A program made the translations under genes and the position numbers. Positions 8,435-17,701 of a stretch of DNA of 64,000 nucleotides are shown here, piece by piece. Each line of letters opens with the position of its first letter. The stretch's first letter is position 1. The notes below the pieces were generated by a model. The model was not told the DNA's origin. It did not search any database and saw only the letters and a program-made list of their open reading frames with translations. The stretch is from contig JANSYL010000006.1 of the NCBI GenBank assembly GCA_024742455.1, positions 62,001 to 126,000 on the forward strand. Reading direction: 5' to 3'. The stretch comes from Paracoccaceae bacterium (lineage in GTDB: Bacteria; Pseudomonadota; Alphaproteobacteria; Rhodobacterales; Rhodobacteraceae).

Positions 8435-8490
8435 TTCGCCTCCTCTCCGGGTTGCGCGGACGGCCTGACGCTTGACGGCGGCTTGGGAGA

Positions 8491-8511
8491 AACTTAGAAC
8501 AATTCCAAGTT
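8491..8511. promoter_or_regulatory. Putative IscR operator before the suf operon
   Basis: AACTTAGAA-CAA-TTCCAAGTT is an inverted repeat with eight of nine arm positions paired, AT-rich in GC-rich surroundings. It lies 125 bases upstream of the iscR start, between iscR and the divergent hydrolase gene. The TAGAA-N3-TTC core resembles the iron-sulfur regulator sites described for Rhodobacterales suf operons. Autoregulation by IscR is inferred. Confidence 0.65.
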
Positions 8512-8635: not shown

Positions 8636-9097
8636 ATGAAGCTCAGCACCAAGGGTCGCTATGCGATGATCGCGATGGCCGATCTTGCCAGCGTGGCCGA
8701 CGGGGCGCTGACACCCTTGTCCGAGATTTCGAGGCGGCAGGATATCTCCTTGCCCTATCTGGAACAGCTTTTCGTGAAATTGCGCCGGGCCGGGCTGGTG
8801 ACTTCGGTGCGGGGGCCGGGCGGGGGATACCGGCTGGCGAAATCGGCCAGCGACATCAGGGTGGTCGATGTGTTCGCGGCGGTCGATGAAACGGTATCGG
8901 CGCTGCATACCGGGGCCGGGGCGTCGGGGGCCGTATCGGGGAGCCGGGCGCAGAGCATGACCAACCGGTTGTGGGAAAGCCTGAGCGCGCATGTCTATGT
9001 CTATCTGCACCAGACGCGGCTGTCGGATGTTGTCGGCAACGACCTGACGCCATGCCCGGCGGTGCCCAACCTGTTCGAGGTCGTCGATGAGGCATGA
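8636..9097 (+). CDS. iscR: Rrf2 family regulator IscR, single-cysteine form
   Basis: A 153-residue Rrf2-type repressor that senses iron-sulfur status. It starts MKLSTKGRYAMIAMADLA and has the winged helix ISRRQDISLPYLEQLFVKLR followed by the wing VRGPGGGYRLAK. The canonical three-cysteine cluster motif of E. coli IscR is absent; the only cysteine is Cys140 (TPCPAVPNL). Rhodobacter sphaeroides IscR is known to bind its cluster with a single cysteine, so this is the expected family form. The start was chosen at 8636, where GGAG lies seven bases upstream; the frame is open further upstream. It heads the suf operon and likely controls it. Confidence 0.93.
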   Translation: MKLSTKGRYAMIAMADLASVADGALTPLSEISRRQDISLPYLEQLFVKLRRAGLVTSVRGPGGGYRLAKSASDIRVVDVFAAVDETVSALHTGAGASGAVSGSRAQSMTNRLWESLSAHVYVYLHQTRLSDVVGNDLTPCPAVPNLFEVVDEA

Positions 9098-9208: not shown

Positions 9209-10252
9209 GTGAGCCGGGTCTACCTGGATTACAACGCCACCGCGCCGCTGCGCCCCGAAGCGCGCGCGGCGATGGTCGCGGCGATGGATGTCGTGGGCAA
9301 CCCCTCCTCGGTCCATGCCGAGGGGCGGGCGGCGAAGGCGCTGGTGGAAAAGGCACGCGCGCAGGTGGCGACGGCGCTGGGCGCAGAGGCGGCCGATATC
9401 GTCTTCGTTTCGGGCGCGACCGAGGCCGCGGCGCTGGCGATGGCCGGGCGCGGCCTGCATGGCGCGGCGGTCGAACATGACGCGGTGCGCGCCTGGATGG
9501 TGGAGGACCTGACCGTGGACGGTGCGGGGCGCGTGGCGGTGACGGAACCGTCGGAGGCCACCCTGCAGGCGGCCAATTCCGAGACGGGGATCCTGCAGGA
9601 CCTGCCCGAGGGGCTGGCGGTCAGCGACTGGAGCCAGGCCTTCGGTAAACTGCCGATGGCCTTTGACTGGTCGGGCGTGGATATGGCGCTGGTCAGCGCG
9701 CACAAGCTGGGCGGGCCCAAGGGGGTGGGCGCGCTGATTCTGCGCCGGGGTCTGGATGTCGCGGCCCAGATCCGGGGCGGCGGGCAGGAGATGGGGCGCC
9801 GGTCGGGCACCGAGAACATCATCGGGATTGCCGGATTCGGAGCCGCTGCCGAGGCCGCGACACGGGATTTGGCGGGCGGTGTCTGGGCCCGGGTCGAAAA
9901 ACTTAGAAATATTCTAGAAAAGACTCTGGAAGATGCGGTGCCTTCGACTATTTTTGTCGGGAAAGGCTCTGCGCGGCTGCCCAACACCTCCTGCCTGATG
10001 GTGCCGGGATGGAAGGGTGAGACGCAGGTGATGCAGATGGACCTGGCGGGGTTCGCCATTTCGGCGGGGTCGGCCTGTTCCAGCGGCAAGGTCAGGGCCA
10101 GCGCGTGCCTGCGTGCGATGGGATTTGACGAGGCCGAGGCCGCCAGCGCGGTCAGGGTGTCGCTCGGGCCGCAGACGACCGAGGCAGAGGTGCGCGCCTT
10201 TGCCGATGCCTGGGGAGCGGCCGCGACCCGCCATCTGGCCCGGGCCGCGTAA
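9209..10252 (+). CDS. Cysteine desulfurase, IscS/NifS type (class I)
   Basis: A PLP enzyme that takes sulfur from cysteine for cluster assembly. The 347-residue protein has the PLP lysine in SAHKLGG (Lys166) and the persulfide cysteine in SAGSACSSGK (Cys290), marking it as the class I form with a long active-site loop. It is shorter than IscS (about 400). The start is GTG at 9209 with CAGGGGG eight bases before it. It follows iscR and precedes sufB. Codons 231-240 are unusually AT-rich and use codons rare in the surrounding genes; they coincide with a palindrome listed separately. Confidence 0.92.
   Translation: MSRVYLDYNATAPLRPEARAAMVAAMDVVGNPSSVHAEGRAAKALVEKARAQVATALGAEAADIVFVSGATEAAALAMAGRGLHGAAVEHDAVRAWMVEDLTVDGAGRVAVTEPSEATLQAANSETGILQDLPEGLAVSDWSQAFGKLPMAFDWSGVDMALVSAHKLGGPKGVGALILRRGLDVAAQIRGGGQEMGRRSGTENIIGIAGFGAAAEAATRDLAGGVWARVEKLRNILEKTLEDAVPSTIFVGKGSARLPNTSCLMVPGWKGETQVMQMDLAGFAISAGSACSSGKVRASACLRAMGFDEAEAASAVRVSLGPQTTEAEVRAFADAWGAAATRHLARAA
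9900..9920. promoter_or_regulatory. Intragenic IscR-box-like palindrome
   Basis: AACTTAGAA-ATA-TTCTAGAAA lies inside the cysteine desulfurase gene. Its left arm is identical over nine bases to the left arm of the operator at 8491, with the same 3-base spacer, and the core TAGAA-N3-TTCTA is perfectly symmetric. It could be a second IscR site, or chance. Function is not proven. Confidence 0.4.
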
Positions 10253-10341
10253 CAGGATCGGGGGCAGCCCCGAAGGAAACGAAGCGGCCCGGCCGGGCCC
10301 GGGGACAAGGGGCGGCGACGCCCGAAAGGTGGAGGTGACCA

Positions 10342-11877
10342 ATGACCGCGTATGATGCAGAGACCGAGGCCCTGGACGTGCGCGACGGCGTCGACCGGGA
10401 GACCGTCGAAACCGTCCAGGCGATGGGCGGCAAGTACAAATACGGCTGGAACACCGACATCGAGATGGAATACGCGCCCAAGGGCGTGAACGAGGATATC
10501 GTCCGGCTGATCAGCGAGAAGAACGGCGAGCCGGAATGGATGACCGACTGGCGCCTGCAGGCGTTCAAGCGCTGGAAGCAGATGGACGAGCCGGAATGGG
10601 CGATGGTGAATTACCCGCCCATCGACTACCAGGACCAGTATTACTACGCCCGTCCGAAAAGTATGTCGGAAAAGCCGAAATCGCTGGATGATGTCGACCC
10701 GGCCCTTTTGGAGACCTACAAGAAACTGGGCATCCCGCTGAAGGAACAGATGATCCTCGCGGGCGTCGAAGGGGCCGAGGATGCCCCGGCCGAAGGCCGC
10801 AAGGTGGCCGTGGACGCGGTGTTCGACAGCGTGTCGGTCGGCACGACCTTCAAGAAGGAGCTGGAGAAGGCGGGCGTCATCTTCTGTTCGATCTCGGAGG
10901 CGATTCAGGAGCATCCCGAGCTGGTGAAGAAATACCTGGGCTCGGTGGTGCCGATCACCGACAATTTCTTTGCCACGCTGAACAGCGCGGTCTTTTCGGA
11001 CGGCTCGTTCGTCTACATCCCGCCGGGCGTGAAATGCCCGATGGAATTGAGCACCTATTTCCGGATCAACGCGGAAAATACCGGCCAGTTCGAACGCACG
11101 CTGATCATTGCCGACAAGGGCAGCTATGTCAGCTACCTGGAAGGCTGCACCGCGCCGATGCGCGACACCCATCAGCTGCACGCGGCGGTGGTGGAGCTGG
11201 TGGCGCTCGACGATGCCGAGATCAAGTATTCGACCGTGCAGAACTGGTACCCGGGCGACGAGAACGGCAAGGGCGGCATCTACAATTTCGTCACCAAGCG
11301 TGCCGATTGCCGGGGCGACCGGTCGAAGGTGATGTGGACGCAGGTGGAGACCGGGTCGGCGGTGACGTGGAAATACCCGTCCTGCATCCTGCGCGGCGAT
11401 GACAGCCAGGGTGAGTTCTATTCCATCGCCATCACCAACAACGCCCAGCAGGCCGATACCGGCACGAAGATGGTGCATCTTGGCAAGAACACGAAATCCC
11501 GGATCGTGTCGAAAGGGATCAGCGCGGGGCGGGCGCAGAACACCTATCGCGGGCTGGTGTCGATGCACAGGAAAGCCACCAATTCGCGCAACTATACCCA
11601 GTGCGACAGCCTGCTGATCGGCGACAAATGCGGGGCGCACACGGTTCCCTATATCGAGGTGAAGAACAATTCGTCCCGCGTCGAACACGAGGCGACGACA
11701 TCGAAGGTCGACGATGACCAGATGTTCTATTGCCAGTCGCGCGGCATGGACGAGGAAGAGGCGGTTGCGCTGATCGTCAACGGCTTTGCCCGCGAGGTGC
11801 TGCAGGCGCTGCCGATGGAATTCGCGATGGAGGCGCAGCAGCTGGTGGCGATCAGCCTGGAAGGGTCGGTGGGGTGA
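10342..11877 (+). CDS. sufB: Fe-S cluster scaffold complex subunit SufB
   Basis: SufB is the core scaffold of the SufBCD complex on which iron-sulfur clusters are built. The 511-residue protein is full length, starts after a strong GGAGG site eight bases upstream, and contains the beta-helix core with [18 protein letters not shown], the conserved LEGCTAP, and [12 protein letters not shown] near the C-terminal part. It is separated from the desulfurase by 89 bases. The stop overlaps the GTG start of the next small gene. Confidence 0.97.
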
Positions 11878-12324: not shown

Positions 12325-12636
12325 ATGATCACCACAACCACCCCATCCGTCGAAGGCAAATCGATTACCGCCTATCACGGCATCGTCGTGGGCGAGGCGA
12401 TCCTGGGCGCGAACGTGTTCCGCGATCTTTTCGCCGGGATCACCGATATCATCGGCGGCCGGTCGGGCGCCTATGAGGAGGAACTGGCCAAGGCGCGCAC
12501 CGTCGCGCTGGAGGAAATGCAGGACCGCGCGCGTGATCTGGGGGCCAATGCGGTTGTCGGTGTCGACCTCGATTACGAGGTGATCAACAACATGCTGATG
12601 GTGTCGGCCTCGGGCACCGCGGTGAGCCTGGCCTGA
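12325..12636 (+). CDS. YbjQ family protein (UPF0145, putative heavy-metal-binding)
   Basis: A 103-residue protein of the usual YbjQ length with the family blocks [41 protein letters not shown], and [16 protein letters not shown]. The family forms pentamers and is labelled heavy-metal-binding by annotation only; its role is unknown. The start codon lies four bases after the previous stop. Presence inside an iron-sulfur operon is suggestive of a metal link but does not prove it. Confidence 0.88.
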
Positions 12637-13324: not shown

Positions 13325-14080
13325 ATGCTCGAGATCAAGAACCTGCATGTGAAACTGGAAGAAGAGGACAAGGACATCCTCAAGGGCGTCGACCTGAGCG
13401 TCGAGGCCGGCAAGGTTCACGCCATCATGGGGCCGAACGGGTCGGGCAAATCGACCCTGTCCTATGTCCTGTCGGGCCGCGACGGGTACGAGGTGACGGA
13501 CGGATCGGCCAGCCTTTTGGGCGAGGACCTGCTGGAGATGGACCCCGAAGACCGCGCCGCTGCGGGCCTGTTCCTTGCGTTCCAGTACCCCGTCGAGATT
13601 CCCGGCGTGGGCAACATGACCTTCCTCAGGACCGCGCTGAACGCGCAACGCAAGGCGCGCGGCGAAGACGAGGTGAGCGCGGGTGATTTCCTGAAACTGG
13701 TCCGCGAAAAGGCCAAGGCGCTGAATATCGATGCCGAGATGCTGAAACGCCCGGTCAATGTGGGGTTCTCGGGCGGCGAGAAGAAACGCAACGAGATCCT
13801 GCAGATGGCCGTGCTGGAGCCGAAGATGTGCATCCTGGACGAGACGGATTCCGGTCTGGACGTGGACGCGATGAAGCTGGTCTCCGAAGGGGTGAACGCG
13901 CTGCGCGATGCGGGCCGCGGGTTCCTTGTGATCACGCACTACCAGCGCCTGCTCGACCATATCAAACCCGATGTCGTCCATATCATGGCCGATGGCCGGA
14001 TCGTGAAAACCGGCGGTCCCGACCTGGCGCTGGAGGTCGAACAGAACGGCTATGCCGATATCCTGGGGGAGGTGGCGTAA
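13325..14080 (+). CDS. sufC: Fe-S assembly ATPase SufC
   Basis: The ABC-type ATPase of the SufBCD scaffold. The 251-residue protein has Walker A GPNGSGKST, the SufC-type signature FSGGEKKRNE, and Walker B CILDETDSGLD. The start has AGGAGG seven bases upstream. Its stop codon TAA shares one base with the sufD start, so translation is probably coupled. Confidence 0.97.
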   Translation: MLEIKNLHVKLEEEDKDILKGVDLSVEAGKVHAIMGPNGSGKSTLSYVLSGRDGYEVTDGSASLLGEDLLEMDPEDRAAAGLFLAFQYPVEIPGVGNMTFLRTALNAQRKARGEDEVSAGDFLKLVREKAKALNIDAEMLKRPVNVGFSGGEKKRNEILQMAVLEPKMCILDETDSGLDVDAMKLVSEGVNALRDAGRGFLVITHYQRLLDHIKPDVVHIMADGRIVKTGGPDLALEVEQNGYADILGEVA

Positions 14081-15378
14081 TGGCTTTGCCGCAAGCCAAG
14101 CTGGACCTGACCGAGGCGCGTCTGGCCGCGCTGAGCCTGCCCGATGGCGCGGGATGGGCGAATGCCGCGCGCGCCGATGCGGTGGCGCGGCTGCGGGCGA
14201 TGGGCCTGCCCACGCGCCGTGACGAGTATTGGAAATTCACCTCTCCCGAAACGCTGACCCGCGCCGATGCCCCCCGCGCAGCCCTTTTCCACGGCGACGA
14301 GACCCCGCTTTATGCCGGCATCGACCGGCTGAAGATCGTGTTCGTCGATGGTGTGTTCGATGCCGATCAATCCGATGACCTGAGCCTCGAACATGTGAGC
14401 ATCGAACATCTGGCCGATGTGACGGCCACCGATATCCACTGGGCCAGGGAGCTTTATGGCCAGCTGGAGATCGCGGGCCAGGACCCGGTGGACCGGCCCC
14501 TGGCCACGCTCAACACCGCCTTCGCCCGTGACGGGGTGGTGATCCGGGTGACCGGCAAGGTCGAAAAGCCGATCAGCCTGGTTTACCTCAATGCCTCCGA
14601 AAGCTCGGACGCGATCCTGCATCACCTGGTGCGGGTCGAGGCGGGCGGCGATGTCACCGTGCTGGAAAACGGCCCGGCGGCGGCGCGGTTCAACAAGGTG
14701 ATGGAGATATCCGTCGCCGATGGCGCAGCCTTTCACCATGTCCGCGCGCAGGGCCGCGACCACGAACGCCGCGCGGTGACGCATATGTTCGCGCGTCTGG
14801 GGCGGGAAAGCACCTACAAGTCGTTTACCCTGACGGCCAATGGCGTTCTGACCCGCAATGAACACGTGATCGAGCTGACCGGAGATGATGCCGTGGCCCA
14901 TGTCGCGGGCGCGGCGATGGGCGACGGCGCGCGCGCCGAGTTTCACCATGACGACACCGTGTTCATCACCCATGACGCCGAACGCTGCGAAAGCCGCCAG
15001 GTGTTCAAGAAGGTGCTGAGAAACGGGGCCGAGGGCGTGTTCCAGGGCAAGATCCTGGTCAAACCCGGCGCGCAGAAAACCGATGGCTACCAGATCAGCC
15101 AGGCCCTGATGCTGGATGATGAATCGAGCTTTCAGGGCAAGCCCGAGCTGGAGATCTATGCCGATGACGTGGTGTGTTCGCACGGGTCCACCACGGGCGC
15201 CATCGACGAGACCGCGCTTTACTACCTGCGCTCGCGCGGGGTGCCCGCCGATCAGGCGACCGATCTTCTGGTGCTGGCCTTCCTGGCCGAGGCGATCGAC
15301 GAGATCGAGGATGCGCGCCTGCAGGACGATATCCGCACCCGTCTGCAGGAATGGCTGGAACGGCGGCGGCAGGGCTGA
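14080..15378 (+). CDS. sufD: Fe-S cluster assembly protein SufD
   Basis: SufD pairs with SufB on the SufC dimer and is needed for iron entry. The 432-residue protein shows the N-terminal motif RRDEYWKFTSPETL, the beta-helix core, and the C-terminal block DVVCSHGSTTGAIDETALYY followed by YLRSRGVP, both characteristic of SufD. The start ATG overlaps the last base of sufC. An earlier in-frame start inside sufC is a shadow. Confidence 0.96.
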   Translation: MALPQAKLDLTEARLAALSLPDGAGWANAARADAVARLRAMGLPTRRDEYWKFTSPETLTRADAPRAALFHGDETPLYAGIDRLKIVFVDGVFDADQSDDLSLEHVSIEHLADVTATDIHWARELYGQLEIAGQDPVDRPLATLNTAFARDGVVIRVTGKVEKPISLVYLNASESSDAILHHLVRVEAGGDVTVLENGPAAARFNKVMEISVADGAAFHHVRAQGRDHERRAVTHMFARLGRESTYKSFTLTANGVLTRNEHVIELTGDDAVAHVAGAAMGDGARAEFHHDDTVFITHDAERCESRQVFKKVLRNGAEGVFQGKILVKPGAQKTDGYQISQALMLDDESSFQGKPELEIYADDVVCSHGSTTGAIDETALYYLRSRGVPADQATDLLVLAFLAEAIDEIEDARLQDDIRTRLQEWLERRRQG

Positions 15379-15381
15379 CGG

Positions 15382-15885
15382 ATGGGCGTGGCCAACGACA
15401 TCGTCGCATCCTGGCGGCGCCCGGCGCAGGTGATGCGCGGCCTTCTGGCGGCGGGCCAGCGCGAGGACCGGGCGCTGGCCTTCCTGATGCTGGCCTGTTT
15501 CCTGATCTTCGTCGCGCAATGGCCGACCCTGAGCCGCCAGGCCTTCGAGGACCCGTCGGTGCCCTTGCAGGCACGGATCGGCGGGGCGCTGTTCGGGTGG
15601 CTTTTCTGGGCGCCGATCCTGTCTTACGGTCTGGCGGCACTGACCCGGATCGCAGCAATGCCCTTTGGCGGGCGCGGCACCTGGTACACCGCGCGGCTGG
15701 CCCTGTTCTGGAGCCTTCTGGCCGCCACGCCCGGCTGGCTTTTCTACGGCATGATCACGGGGTTCATCGGGCCGGGGCCTGCGGCGAATGTGGTCGGCGC
15801 GGTGTTGCTGTTTGCATTCCTGTCGATCTGGGGCATCACCCTGCGCGTGGCCGAGACCGAAGGAATGACGGACGTGACCCCATGA
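15382..15885 (+). CDS. Yip1-like membrane protein 1
   Basis: A 167-residue protein with about five membrane segments, an N-terminal NDIVASWRRPAQVMRGLL that is typical of bacterial Yip1-domain proteins, and a YSVL-free short cytoplasmic tail. The family function is unknown. It begins three bases after sufD and overlaps the next gene by ATGA, so it belongs to the suf transcript. Confidence 0.75.
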   Translation: MGVANDIVASWRRPAQVMRGLLAAGQREDRALAFLMLACFLIFVAQWPTLSRQAFEDPSVPLQARIGGALFGWLFWAPILSYGLAALTRIAAMPFGGRGTWYTARLALFWSLLAATPGWLFYGMITGFIGPGPAANVVGAVLLFAFLSIWGITLRVAETEGMTDVTP

Positions 15886-16481
15886 CCGAGATGATGCGCC
15901 TCGGCAGCCTGCTCAGGCTGGCCCGCGATACCATCGCCAACCCCCGTGAGGGGGCGGAAACGGTGCTGAGCTTCGCGCCGCCGCGCCAGGCGCTGGCGCT
16001 GATGTTCGCCTTGGTGGTGGTGCTGTCGATCCTGATCGGCGAGGTGGTTCTGCTGGTGTCCCCGCCCACCGACGAGGGGCCGCTGACCGGGGCATCGCCG
16101 ATGGCGATGGGCGCGGTGCAGGCGATGTTTCTTTACCTGATGATCCACGCCATCCACATCGTGGGCCGCTTTTTCGGCGGCACCGGTGCCTTCGAGGAGG
16201 CCGCCCTTCTGGTGATCTGGCTGCAGGCGATTTTCCTTCTGGTGCAGGTCATCCAGCTGTTCGCCGTGGCGCTGATGCCGCCGCTTCTGGGCACGATCAC
16301 GATCCTGGCGCTGGTGCTGTTCGTCTGGCTTCTGGTGAATTTCATCGCCGTGCTGCACGGGTTCACATCGCTCGGGATGGTCTTCGTGATGACGGTGATG
16401 GGGGGCTTTACCATCCTGTTCTTCCTGTCGCTTACCCTGACGCTTCTGGGTCTGGTGCCCGATCCGGGGGCTGCGCCATGA
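15882..16481 (+). CDS. Yip1-like membrane protein 2
   Basis: A 199-residue membrane protein with about five segments. The N-terminal LRLARDTIANPREGAETVL is the Yip1-domain lead found in rhodobacterial paralogues, and it is related in layout to the gene just upstream. The start ATG lies in an ATGA overlap with that gene; the stop overlaps the sufS start in the same way. The three are thus translationally chained. Function unknown. Confidence 0.75.
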   Translation: MTEMMRLGSLLRLARDTIANPREGAETVLSFAPPRQALALMFALVVVLSILIGEVVLLVSPPTDEGPLTGASPMAMGAVQAMFLYLMIHAIHIVGRFFGGTGAFEEAALLVIWLQAIFLLVQVIQLFAVALMPPLLGTITILALVLFVWLLVNFIAVLHGFTSLGMVFVMTVMGGFTILFFLSLTLTLLGLVPDPGAAP

Positions 16482-17701
16482 GCTATGACGTAACCCGCAT
16501 CCGCGCCGATTTCCCGATCCTCGCGCGTGAGGTGAACGGCAAGCCGCTGACCTATCTGGACAATGGCGCCTCGGCGCAGAAGCCGCAGGTGGTGATCGAC
16601 GCGGTCGCGCAGGCCTATGGGCAGGAATATTCCAACGTCCACCGCGGCCTGCATTACCTGTCGACGCTGGCGACCGAGAAATACGAGGCCGTGCGCGGGA
16701 TCATCGCGCGGTTCCTTGGTGTGGCCGACGAGGACGAGATCGTCTTCACATCCGGCACCACCGAGGCGATCAACCTGGTGGCCTATGGCTGGGCCGCGCC
16801 CCGGATGGGCGCGGGCGACGAGATCGTTCTGACCATCGCCGAACATCACGCAAATATCGTGCCCTGGCATCTGCTGAGGGAACGGCAGGGCGTGGTGCTG
16901 AAATGGGTGGATGTCGACGCCAATGGCGACCTCGACCCGCAGGCAGTGATCGACGCGATCGGGCCTAAGACGAAACTGGTAGCGATGGCCCATATGTCGA
17001 ACGTGCTGGGCACGGTGTTCGACGTGAAGCCGATCATCGAGGCGGCCCATGCAAAGGGTGTGCCGGTTCTGCTGGATGGCAGCCAGGCTGCCGTGCATAT
17101 GCCCGTGGATCTGGATGATCTGGACGCGGATTTCTACGCCATCACGGGCCACAAACTGTACGGGCCTTCAGGCTCGGGCGCGATCCATATCAAGCGGTCG
17201 CGGATGGACGAGATGCAGCCCTTCATGGGTGGCGGCGACATGATCCGCGAGGTCCACCGCGACCACGTCACCTGGAACGATCCGCCGATGAAATTCGAAG
17301 CCGGGACCCCCGGCATCGTGCAACAGATCGGGCTGGGCGTGGCGCTGGACTACATGATGGGCGTCGGGATGGAGAATATCGCCGCGCATGAGGCGAAGCT
17401 GCGCGATTATGCGCGCGCGCGGCTGGAGGGGCTCAACTGGCTGAACGTGCAGGGCCAAAGCGCCTCGAAAGGCGCGATCTTTTCCTTCACGCTGGAAGGC
17501 GCGGCCCATGCCCATGACATCTCGACCGTGCTCGACAAGAAGGGCGTGGCGGTGCGTGCCGGCCACCATTGCGCGCAACCCCTGATGGCCCATATGGGCG
17601 TGCCCGCGACCTGCAGGGCCAGTTTCGGGATGTACAACACCGAGGCCGAGGTCGACGTGCTGATCGAGGCGCTGGAGCTGTGCCACGACCTGTTCGCCTG
17701 A
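16478..17701 (+). CDS. sufS: Cysteine desulfurase SufS (class II)
   Basis: A PLP enzyme that supplies sulfur to SufBCD. The 407-residue protein has Lys226 in ITGHKLYGPSG for PLP and the catalytic Cys365 in the class II motif RAGHHCAQP. The family normally needs SufE or SufU as sulfur acceptor, and none is present in this operon. It is the last gene of the unit, coupled to the upstream membrane gene by ATGA. A class I desulfurase is encoded at the other end of the same operon. Confidence 0.96.
   Translation: MSYDVTRIRADFPILAREVNGKPLTYLDNGASAQKPQVVIDAVAQAYGQEYSNVHRGLHYLSTLATEKYEAVRGIIARFLGVADEDEIVFTSGTTEAINLVAYGWAAPRMGAGDEIVLTIAEHHANIVPWHLLRERQGVVLKWVDVDANGDLDPQAVIDAIGPKTKLVAMAHMSNVLGTVFDVKPIIEAAHAKGVPVLLDGSQAAVHMPVDLDDLDADFYAITGHKLYGPSGSGAIHIKRSRMDEMQPFMGGGDMIREVHRDHVTWNDPPMKFEAGTPGIVQQIGLGVALDYMMGVGMENIAAHEAKLRDYARARLEGLNWLNVQGQSASKGAIFSFTLEGAAHAHDISTVLDKKGVAVRAGHHCAQPLMAHMGVPATCRASFGMYNTEAEVDVLIEALELCHDLFA

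Follow-up and report, generated by a model that had tools for sequence, protein, structure and literature searches.

The palindrome at positions 9900–9920 of the window (the whole 64,000-nt stretch of DNA from a Paracoccaceae bacterium analysed here) very likely serves as a binding site for Irr, an iron regulator, located inside a cysteine desulfurase gene and beside a putative internal promoter for the iron-sulfur genes downstream. Most of the relatives whose genomes we sampled retain this box, and in them it appears even to fix some amino acids of the enzyme. The element itself is known, having been published for Rhodobacter sphaeroides; its regulator was misnamed as IscR in the initial annotation of this DNA, a guess that can now be replaced by a documented Irr operator.

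Results

Gene content of the operon

An iscR-like gene for an Rrf2-family regulator (8636–9097, + strand) scores 121.2 bits against TIGR00738 (cut-off 73.3) and 140.4 bits against the IscR model TIGR02010, below the cut-off of 207.55. The iscS gene (9209–10252, + strand) encodes a NifS/IscS-type cysteine desulfurase that scores 237.6 bits against TIGR03402, below the cut-off of 530.75. sufB (10342–11877, + strand; 626 bits against TIGR01980, above cut-off) is the first gene downstream of the putative internal promoter, and a second cysteine desulfurase gene, sufS, lies at 16478–17701 (+ strand; 533.9 bits against TIGR01979, above cut-off). The open reading frame at 13325–14080 (+ strand), with an operon order as in R. 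sphaeroides, and the checked open frame at 14077–15378 (+ strand) are named sufC and sufD by synteny. Small extra open reading frames occur inside the suf operon at 12325–12636 and 15382–16481, and one extra frame presumably resembles the YbjQ family. iscS is the first desulfurase gene after iscR, the order given for R. sphaeroides in the available text of PMC6956336, and two membrane-protein-like frames occupy the place of the two Yip1-family genes described there.

A palindrome within iscS

The palindrome AACTTAGAAATATTCTAGAAA at 9900–9920 is the sole match at up to three mismatches in the window, where 0 were expected. Its core, TTAGAA-N3-TTCTA, occurs without mismatch a single time in the 2.88 Mb genome, namely within iscS at 9903–9916; one-mismatch matches are not in excess genome-wide, with 9 rows versus 11 for a reversed-pattern control. 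We re-drew iscS synonymously 20,000 times, keeping the protein and using the codon usage of four neighbouring genes: no re-draw came within one mismatch of the palindrome anywhere in the gene, and 40 reached two. Unique in the window, with a core unique in the genome, and unreached in the re-draws, the palindrome lies far beyond chance, and a chance origin was rejected.

The palindrome is written in unusual codons. In eight neighbouring genes (iscS included, minus the palindrome patch) CTA accounts for 0 of 224 leucine codons, AGA for 1 of 150 arginine codons, ATT for 8 of 132 isoleucine codons and CTT for 15 of 224 leucine codons. AAT, which had been counted with these four as rare, provides 24 of 79 asparagine codons and is not. 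The lowest-GC 69-nt stretch of iscS falls in the patch (GC 0.38 vs a median of 0.72). The patch is also longer than first described, with a second conserved block at ~9946–9963.

A match to a published Irr site

Within the palindrome, CTTAGAA-ATA-TTCTAGA (9902–9918, + strand; iscS codons 232–237, centre 9910) is a predicted Irr box, or iron control element. It has two mismatches to TTTAGAA-N3-TTCTAAA, the 17-mer Irr-box consensus used here for scoring. The 16-mer of the window is identical, letter for letter, to TTAGAAATATTCTAGA, which the available text of PMC6956336 gives as the Irr site in R. sphaeroides iscS, ~50 nt upstream of the start of promoter P3; the R. sphaeroides region with TTAGAAATATTCTAGA was gel-shifted specifically by Irr in vitro.

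A related palindrome precedes iscR (8491–8511, + strand). It shares with 9900–9920 the left arm AACTTAGAA and the length of the 3-nt spacer, a resemblance that the initial annotation had described correctly; that site is itself Irr-box-like, with three mismatches at 8493–8509 to the 17-mer consensus. Before iscR (8472–8511), TTGACG (8472–8477) is followed 19 nt on by the Irr-like palindrome AACTTAGAACAATTCCAAGTT, where a −10 element would lie. Of the 188 loci scored (duplicates included), 141 have an Irr-like 17-mer, at up to two mismatches, between 300 and 1100 nt before iscS, and many relatives have TTGAC and then an Irr-like box upstream of iscR. As this layout recurs, Irr and an IscR-type site may share the iscR promoter. 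R. sphaeroides Irr did not bind the region before iscR in vitro, according to the accessible part of PMC6956336, so the box at 8491 may be weak or species-restricted.

Anatomy of the putative internal promoter

In R. sphaeroides, the available sections of PMC6956336 predict P3 within iscS, report dRNA-seq and describe transcripts that start at P3 and span the suf genes. P3 has an A at −10, TTG around −34 and, around its start site, the motif GACTATTTCTGTCGG, which is part of a fragment bound by IscR. By comparison with this published promoter, the putative −35 region of the window is TGGAAG (9927–9932, + strand), which is weak in sequence; among the 151 boxed relatives this hexamer opens with TTG in 96 and, as in the window, with TGG in 46. 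The first T of the box core precedes the start of the putative −10 element TATTTT (9949–9954, + strand) by 46 nt. TATTTT stands at the same offset in 138 of 151 boxed relatives, and the distance from box to −10 block is 46 nt in 132 of the 133 boxed loci with a recognisable block.

Over the −10 lies an IscR-box-like dyad, GAC-TATTTTT-GTC (9946–9958, + strand), the counterpart of GACTATTTCTGTCGG: GACTATTTTTGTCGG at 9946–9960 differs from the R. sphaeroides motif by one base over 15 nt. Of 154 boxed loci, duplicates included, 82 preserve both dyad halves. The GAC-N7-GTC reading of this IscR-like motif is our own; in P3, the reported IscR-bound motif sits ~40 nt downstream of the palindrome. The predicted transcription start is at 9960–9961 (+ strand), as judged by spacing from the −10 with R. 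sphaeroides P3 as guide, and the centre of the predicted Irr box would be ~50 nt upstream of it. Since sufB starts at 10342, a P3 leader would be ~380 nt long. Of the P3-type features in the window, box, −10 block and dyad thus fit in spacing, and the −35 has TGG, not TTG. A sigma-70 consensus scan of 9850–10350 found no promoter, and the same interval holds one terminator-like site on the − strand vs 0.4 expected.

Conservation of the box at the DNA and protein levels

We aligned iscS from 110 loci and calculated, for windows of nine codons, how far synonymous codon identity exceeded the chance expectation. Synonymous conservation is highest at codons 229–240 and 243–255 (observed minus expected up to 0.29), compared with a mean of 0.063 and a maximum of 0.200 in the rest of the gene. 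Synonymous-site conservation in relatives was the test named in the initial annotation for its idea that the DNA itself is selected, and the result speaks for selection.

The best match to the 11 fixed bases of the box within 30 nt splits 192 loci into two groups, 155 at 0–2 mismatches and 37 at 4–7, with none at three. All but one of the 155 loci at 0–2 mismatches share one register, the exception (L220) being 11 nt off. Subtracting three loci whose iscS is identical to another leaves 189 distinct family genes, among which near-duplicates may remain; 151 are boxed and 38 boxless. The loci comprise best matches (one set being the best 80 of at least 507), the 16 genomes without detected irr, 14 low-scoring irr-bearing and 30 second-in-genus or divergent ones; such a sample is not random, and the share of 151 in 189 should not be read as how common the box is in the family. 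In 37 of the 38 boxless loci, a coding-strand scan from iscS start to locus end for the 17-mer, allowing up to two mismatches, found no displaced replacement box; L220, with a match elsewhere in iscS, is the exception.

The encoded residues follow the box. At position 235, 148 of the 151 boxed genes encode Ile and the remaining three Val; the 38 boxless genes have Leu (14), Arg (6), Gly (3), Lys (3) or others. At position 234, 137 of the 151 boxed genes encode Asn, and 29 of the 38 boxless ones have Asp. The drop in variety at position 235 between boxless and boxed genes (2.93 bits) is the largest among 338 positions compared. Because boxless genes diverge more overall (the difference averages 0.49 bits across the gene, s.d. 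0.53), it is the size of the effect at 235, not its sign, that is informative.

That codon conservation here merely follows conserved desulfurase residues is therefore very improbable. Arg233, which never varies among the 151 boxed or the 38 boxless genes, is what such a protein-level constraint would produce; the choice of codon is not, with AGA at this arginine in 96 of 110 genes vs 44 of 2138 arginine codons elsewhere, and CTA at position 236 in 96 of 110 genes vs 38 of 2516 leucine codons elsewhere. Codon choice, together with the change of residues 234 and 235 in genes without the box, led us to reject it. We give virtually no credence to a function-less patch, AT-rich by chance or recently acquired: the low GC content of the patch would suit it, but the same register in 151 of 189 distinct genes and the nearly invariant spacing to the −10 block do not, nor does the lack of any match at up to two mismatches at this place in 14 loci that belong to other families of the same class.

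Association of the box with irr

Irr is encoded in this genome (L112:1402–1821, − strand), with 194.6 bits against NF045678 (cut-off 150) and 192.9 bits against NF045677 (cut-off 170); the gene adjoins a fabA-like gene. The 395 family genomes with a completeness of 97% or more include 16 that gave no irr match at E ≤ 1e-25 (G013, G016, G022, G082, G132, G190, G217, G229, G232, G271, G411, G439, G455, G465, G505 and G506); a divergent Irr is possible in these, since two of the 16 alone were also tested at E 1e-8. A perfect box is present in 116 of 144 genomes with irr vs 0 of 16 without (Fisher p 1e-10, relatedness ignored), and a box at up to two mismatches in 121 of 144 irr-bearing genomes. 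Relics in the irr-less set have one mismatch (L132) or two (L182). These counts cover 144 + 16 of the 189 distinct loci; the other 29 comprise 5 in less complete genomes, 20 named, 2 others and 2 MAGs without an irr match. Both MAGs carry a perfect box (L044/L074, genomes G527/G554).

A FastTree phylogeny of IscS plus SufB for the sampled loci requires no fewer than 9 changes of irr and 20 of the perfect box. For the perfect box, 7 supported independent pairs gave on average 4.1 changes the same way, 0 opposite and 2.9 without difference (median p 0.125); for the looser box, the corresponding values were 2.4, 0.3 and 4.3 (median p 0.5). The association is nearly uniform in direction but not significant after tree correction, and we regard it as suggestive only. 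G190, in which irr was not found, has a box decayed by one base and a degraded −10 block, and G490 has irr, a perfect box and a perfect block; the two share a genus code and fall in one 18-leaf clade of the tree, not as sisters. A further pair, G465 (no irr, no box) and G097 (irr, perfect box), was dropped, as its members do not group on this tree.

Irr does not need the box everywhere, as 23 of 144 irr-bearing genomes are without it. One boxless irr-bearing group consists of Shimia, Cognatishimia and Pseudopelagicola (L050, L061, L084, L093 and L097, with L086 and L092 near by), and two other Cognatishimia (L105, L110) carry the box. In this group the −10/IscR block is kept at 0 to 3 mismatches, a loss of the Irr site alone.

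Two other Irr-like sites show the same tendency. The Irr-like site upstream of iscR is found at up to two mismatches in 0 of 15 irr-lacking loci scored. A further Irr box, TTTAGAACCGTTCCAAA, is located at L247:1500–1516 (G000:C21), 76 nt upstream of an nfu-like gene at 1576–2139, encoding an NfuA-like iron-sulfur carrier. Allowing up to two mismatches, 14 of 23 family loci have this site, between −69 and −82; three of the 23 lack irr, and none of these three has it.

Probable regulator and mode of action

We consider it very likely that the palindrome is the Irr operator of an internal promoter P3 inside iscS that drives sufB and the later suf genes. Internal control of these genes had been proposed in the initial annotation, and such an element has been published at this place in R. 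sphaeroides. Irr, a Fur-family iron regulator of alphaproteobacteria, would bind at about −50 of P3, as shown in vitro for the orthologous region of R. sphaeroides, and P3, lying wholly within iscS, would drive sufB and the following genes. IscR would act as a second repressor at P3 through a motif over the −10 and start, binding and repression having been shown in R. sphaeroides, where the motif is the authors' assignment. Under iron shortage, Irr would damp the suf genes more than the upstream iscR and iscS, through P3 and perhaps, in addition, by standing in the way of polymerase arriving from upstream. For the window species, we infer that Irr and IscR bind these sites, where transcription starts and in which direction control acts.

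Published data on R. sphaeroides bear on this model. When iscR was disrupted by a cassette that eliminates expression of iscS, strong expression of sufCD and RSP_0439 persisted, driven by an additional promoter. Without iron, the ratios of irr deletion to wild type were 2.74 for sufB, 2.86 for RSP_0439, 2.42 for sufC and 2.60 for sufD, and 1.39 and 1.34 for RSP_0442 and RSP_0443, the genes before the site, which we have taken as iscS and iscR. These ratios come from one microarray table, in which the iron-replete values of RSP_0442 and RSP_0443 failed the authors' quality criterion; the contrast between genes before and after the site is our reading, the authors treating RSP_0434–0443 together. 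P3 itself, in the available text of PMC6956336, showed no significant iron response in wild type and rose ~2-fold on depletion without Irr, a small effect, and Irr repression was stronger with all upstream promoters present. From the mutant ratios and the P3 responses we take Irr as a damper of suf under iron shortage.

The initial annotation had instead made the palindrome an IscR box, serving as internal operator or as IscR roadblock, a reading that is now hard to credit. The operon does start with iscR, R. sphaeroides IscR binds a P3 fragment, and without IscR P3 is up 2.8-fold under iron depletion and 2.5-fold under iron repletion, as the accessible part of PMC6956336 reports. Its authors, however, give IscR to GACTATTTCTGTCGG around the start and Irr to TTAGAAATATTCTAGA; the IscR-shifted fragment may contain both motifs. 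Of the 16 loci without detected irr, 12 have an iscR-like gene (a tblastn match within the fetched locus), three are without one and one is cut off; none has a perfect box, the one-mismatch relic L132 being among the 12. The box is thus not kept with IscR independently of Irr, and on this ground and the published assignment we rejected the IscR box.

If the palindrome belongs to Irr, it might still work mainly by roadblocking polymerase from the iscR promoters, so that suf output is separated from that of iscR-iscS, whether in addition to an effect on P3 or in place of one. The steeper rise of the genes past the site in the R. sphaeroides irr mutant would fit, and a centre at ~−50 is, by general knowledge, unusual for a repressor of P3 itself. 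Set against this is the constant 46-nt distance to the −10 block, from which we argue that the box works together with P3. The long fusion also contains an iscR copy, a possible cause of its behaviour according to the authors in the available text of PMC6956336. On balance, we consider a predominant roadblock, which would be one for Irr rather than IscR, somewhat unlikely. Doubtful, too, and offered tentatively, is a broader proposal that an intragenic operator has captured part of a protein: across most of the family, desulfurase residues 234–236 would be dictated by the Irr site, bound Irr would be an iron-dependent roadblock uncoupling suf from iscR-iscS, and these residues would drift after loss of the site.

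Discussion

Judged by the comparative signs tested here, the palindrome in iscS is functional. An element described in one species is shown to be kept in most family members sampled, with DNA and protein read together. As far as our literature searches go, this family-wide double constraint is new, and so, with suggestive evidence only, is the lack of an intact box in genomes without detected irr. The searches found no paper on family-wide conservation of the iscS Irr site; a 2006 bioinformatic paper, which is said to have defined the Iron-Rhodo-box, may mention it. Conserved residues of this enzyme, our data warn, can be conserved for the sake of the DNA. Relatives that hold irr and the P3 block without the box, together with genomes without irr, offer a natural test system for operon splitting by an internal Irr site.

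The closest known system is R. sphaeroides P3 (PMC6956336, in its available text), which lies in the same gene, has the same 16-nt Irr site, precedes similar downstream genes and places a GAC-TATTT-TGTCGG block in the same order and at roughly the same distance. P3 and its binding sites in the window species are predicted from sequence, whereas R. sphaeroides offers binding and start data. The Irr boxes before mbfA and ccpA of R. sphaeroides (available part of PMC3413700) share their regulator with the predicted window box, and the ccpA start ~40 nt downstream of its box gives a similar geometry; those boxes are predicted in upstream regions, while the window box is intragenic and shares its bases with codons. 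The Iron-Rhodo-box, at which IscR acts in Rhodobacteraceae, controls this operon as well as iron genes and is described in the accessible text of PMC4618611 as a 19-bp palindrome resembling the RirA box; the palindrome at 9900–9920 is not assigned to IscR, although an IscR motif is reported in R. sphaeroides P3, the promoter that contains the published Irr box as well.
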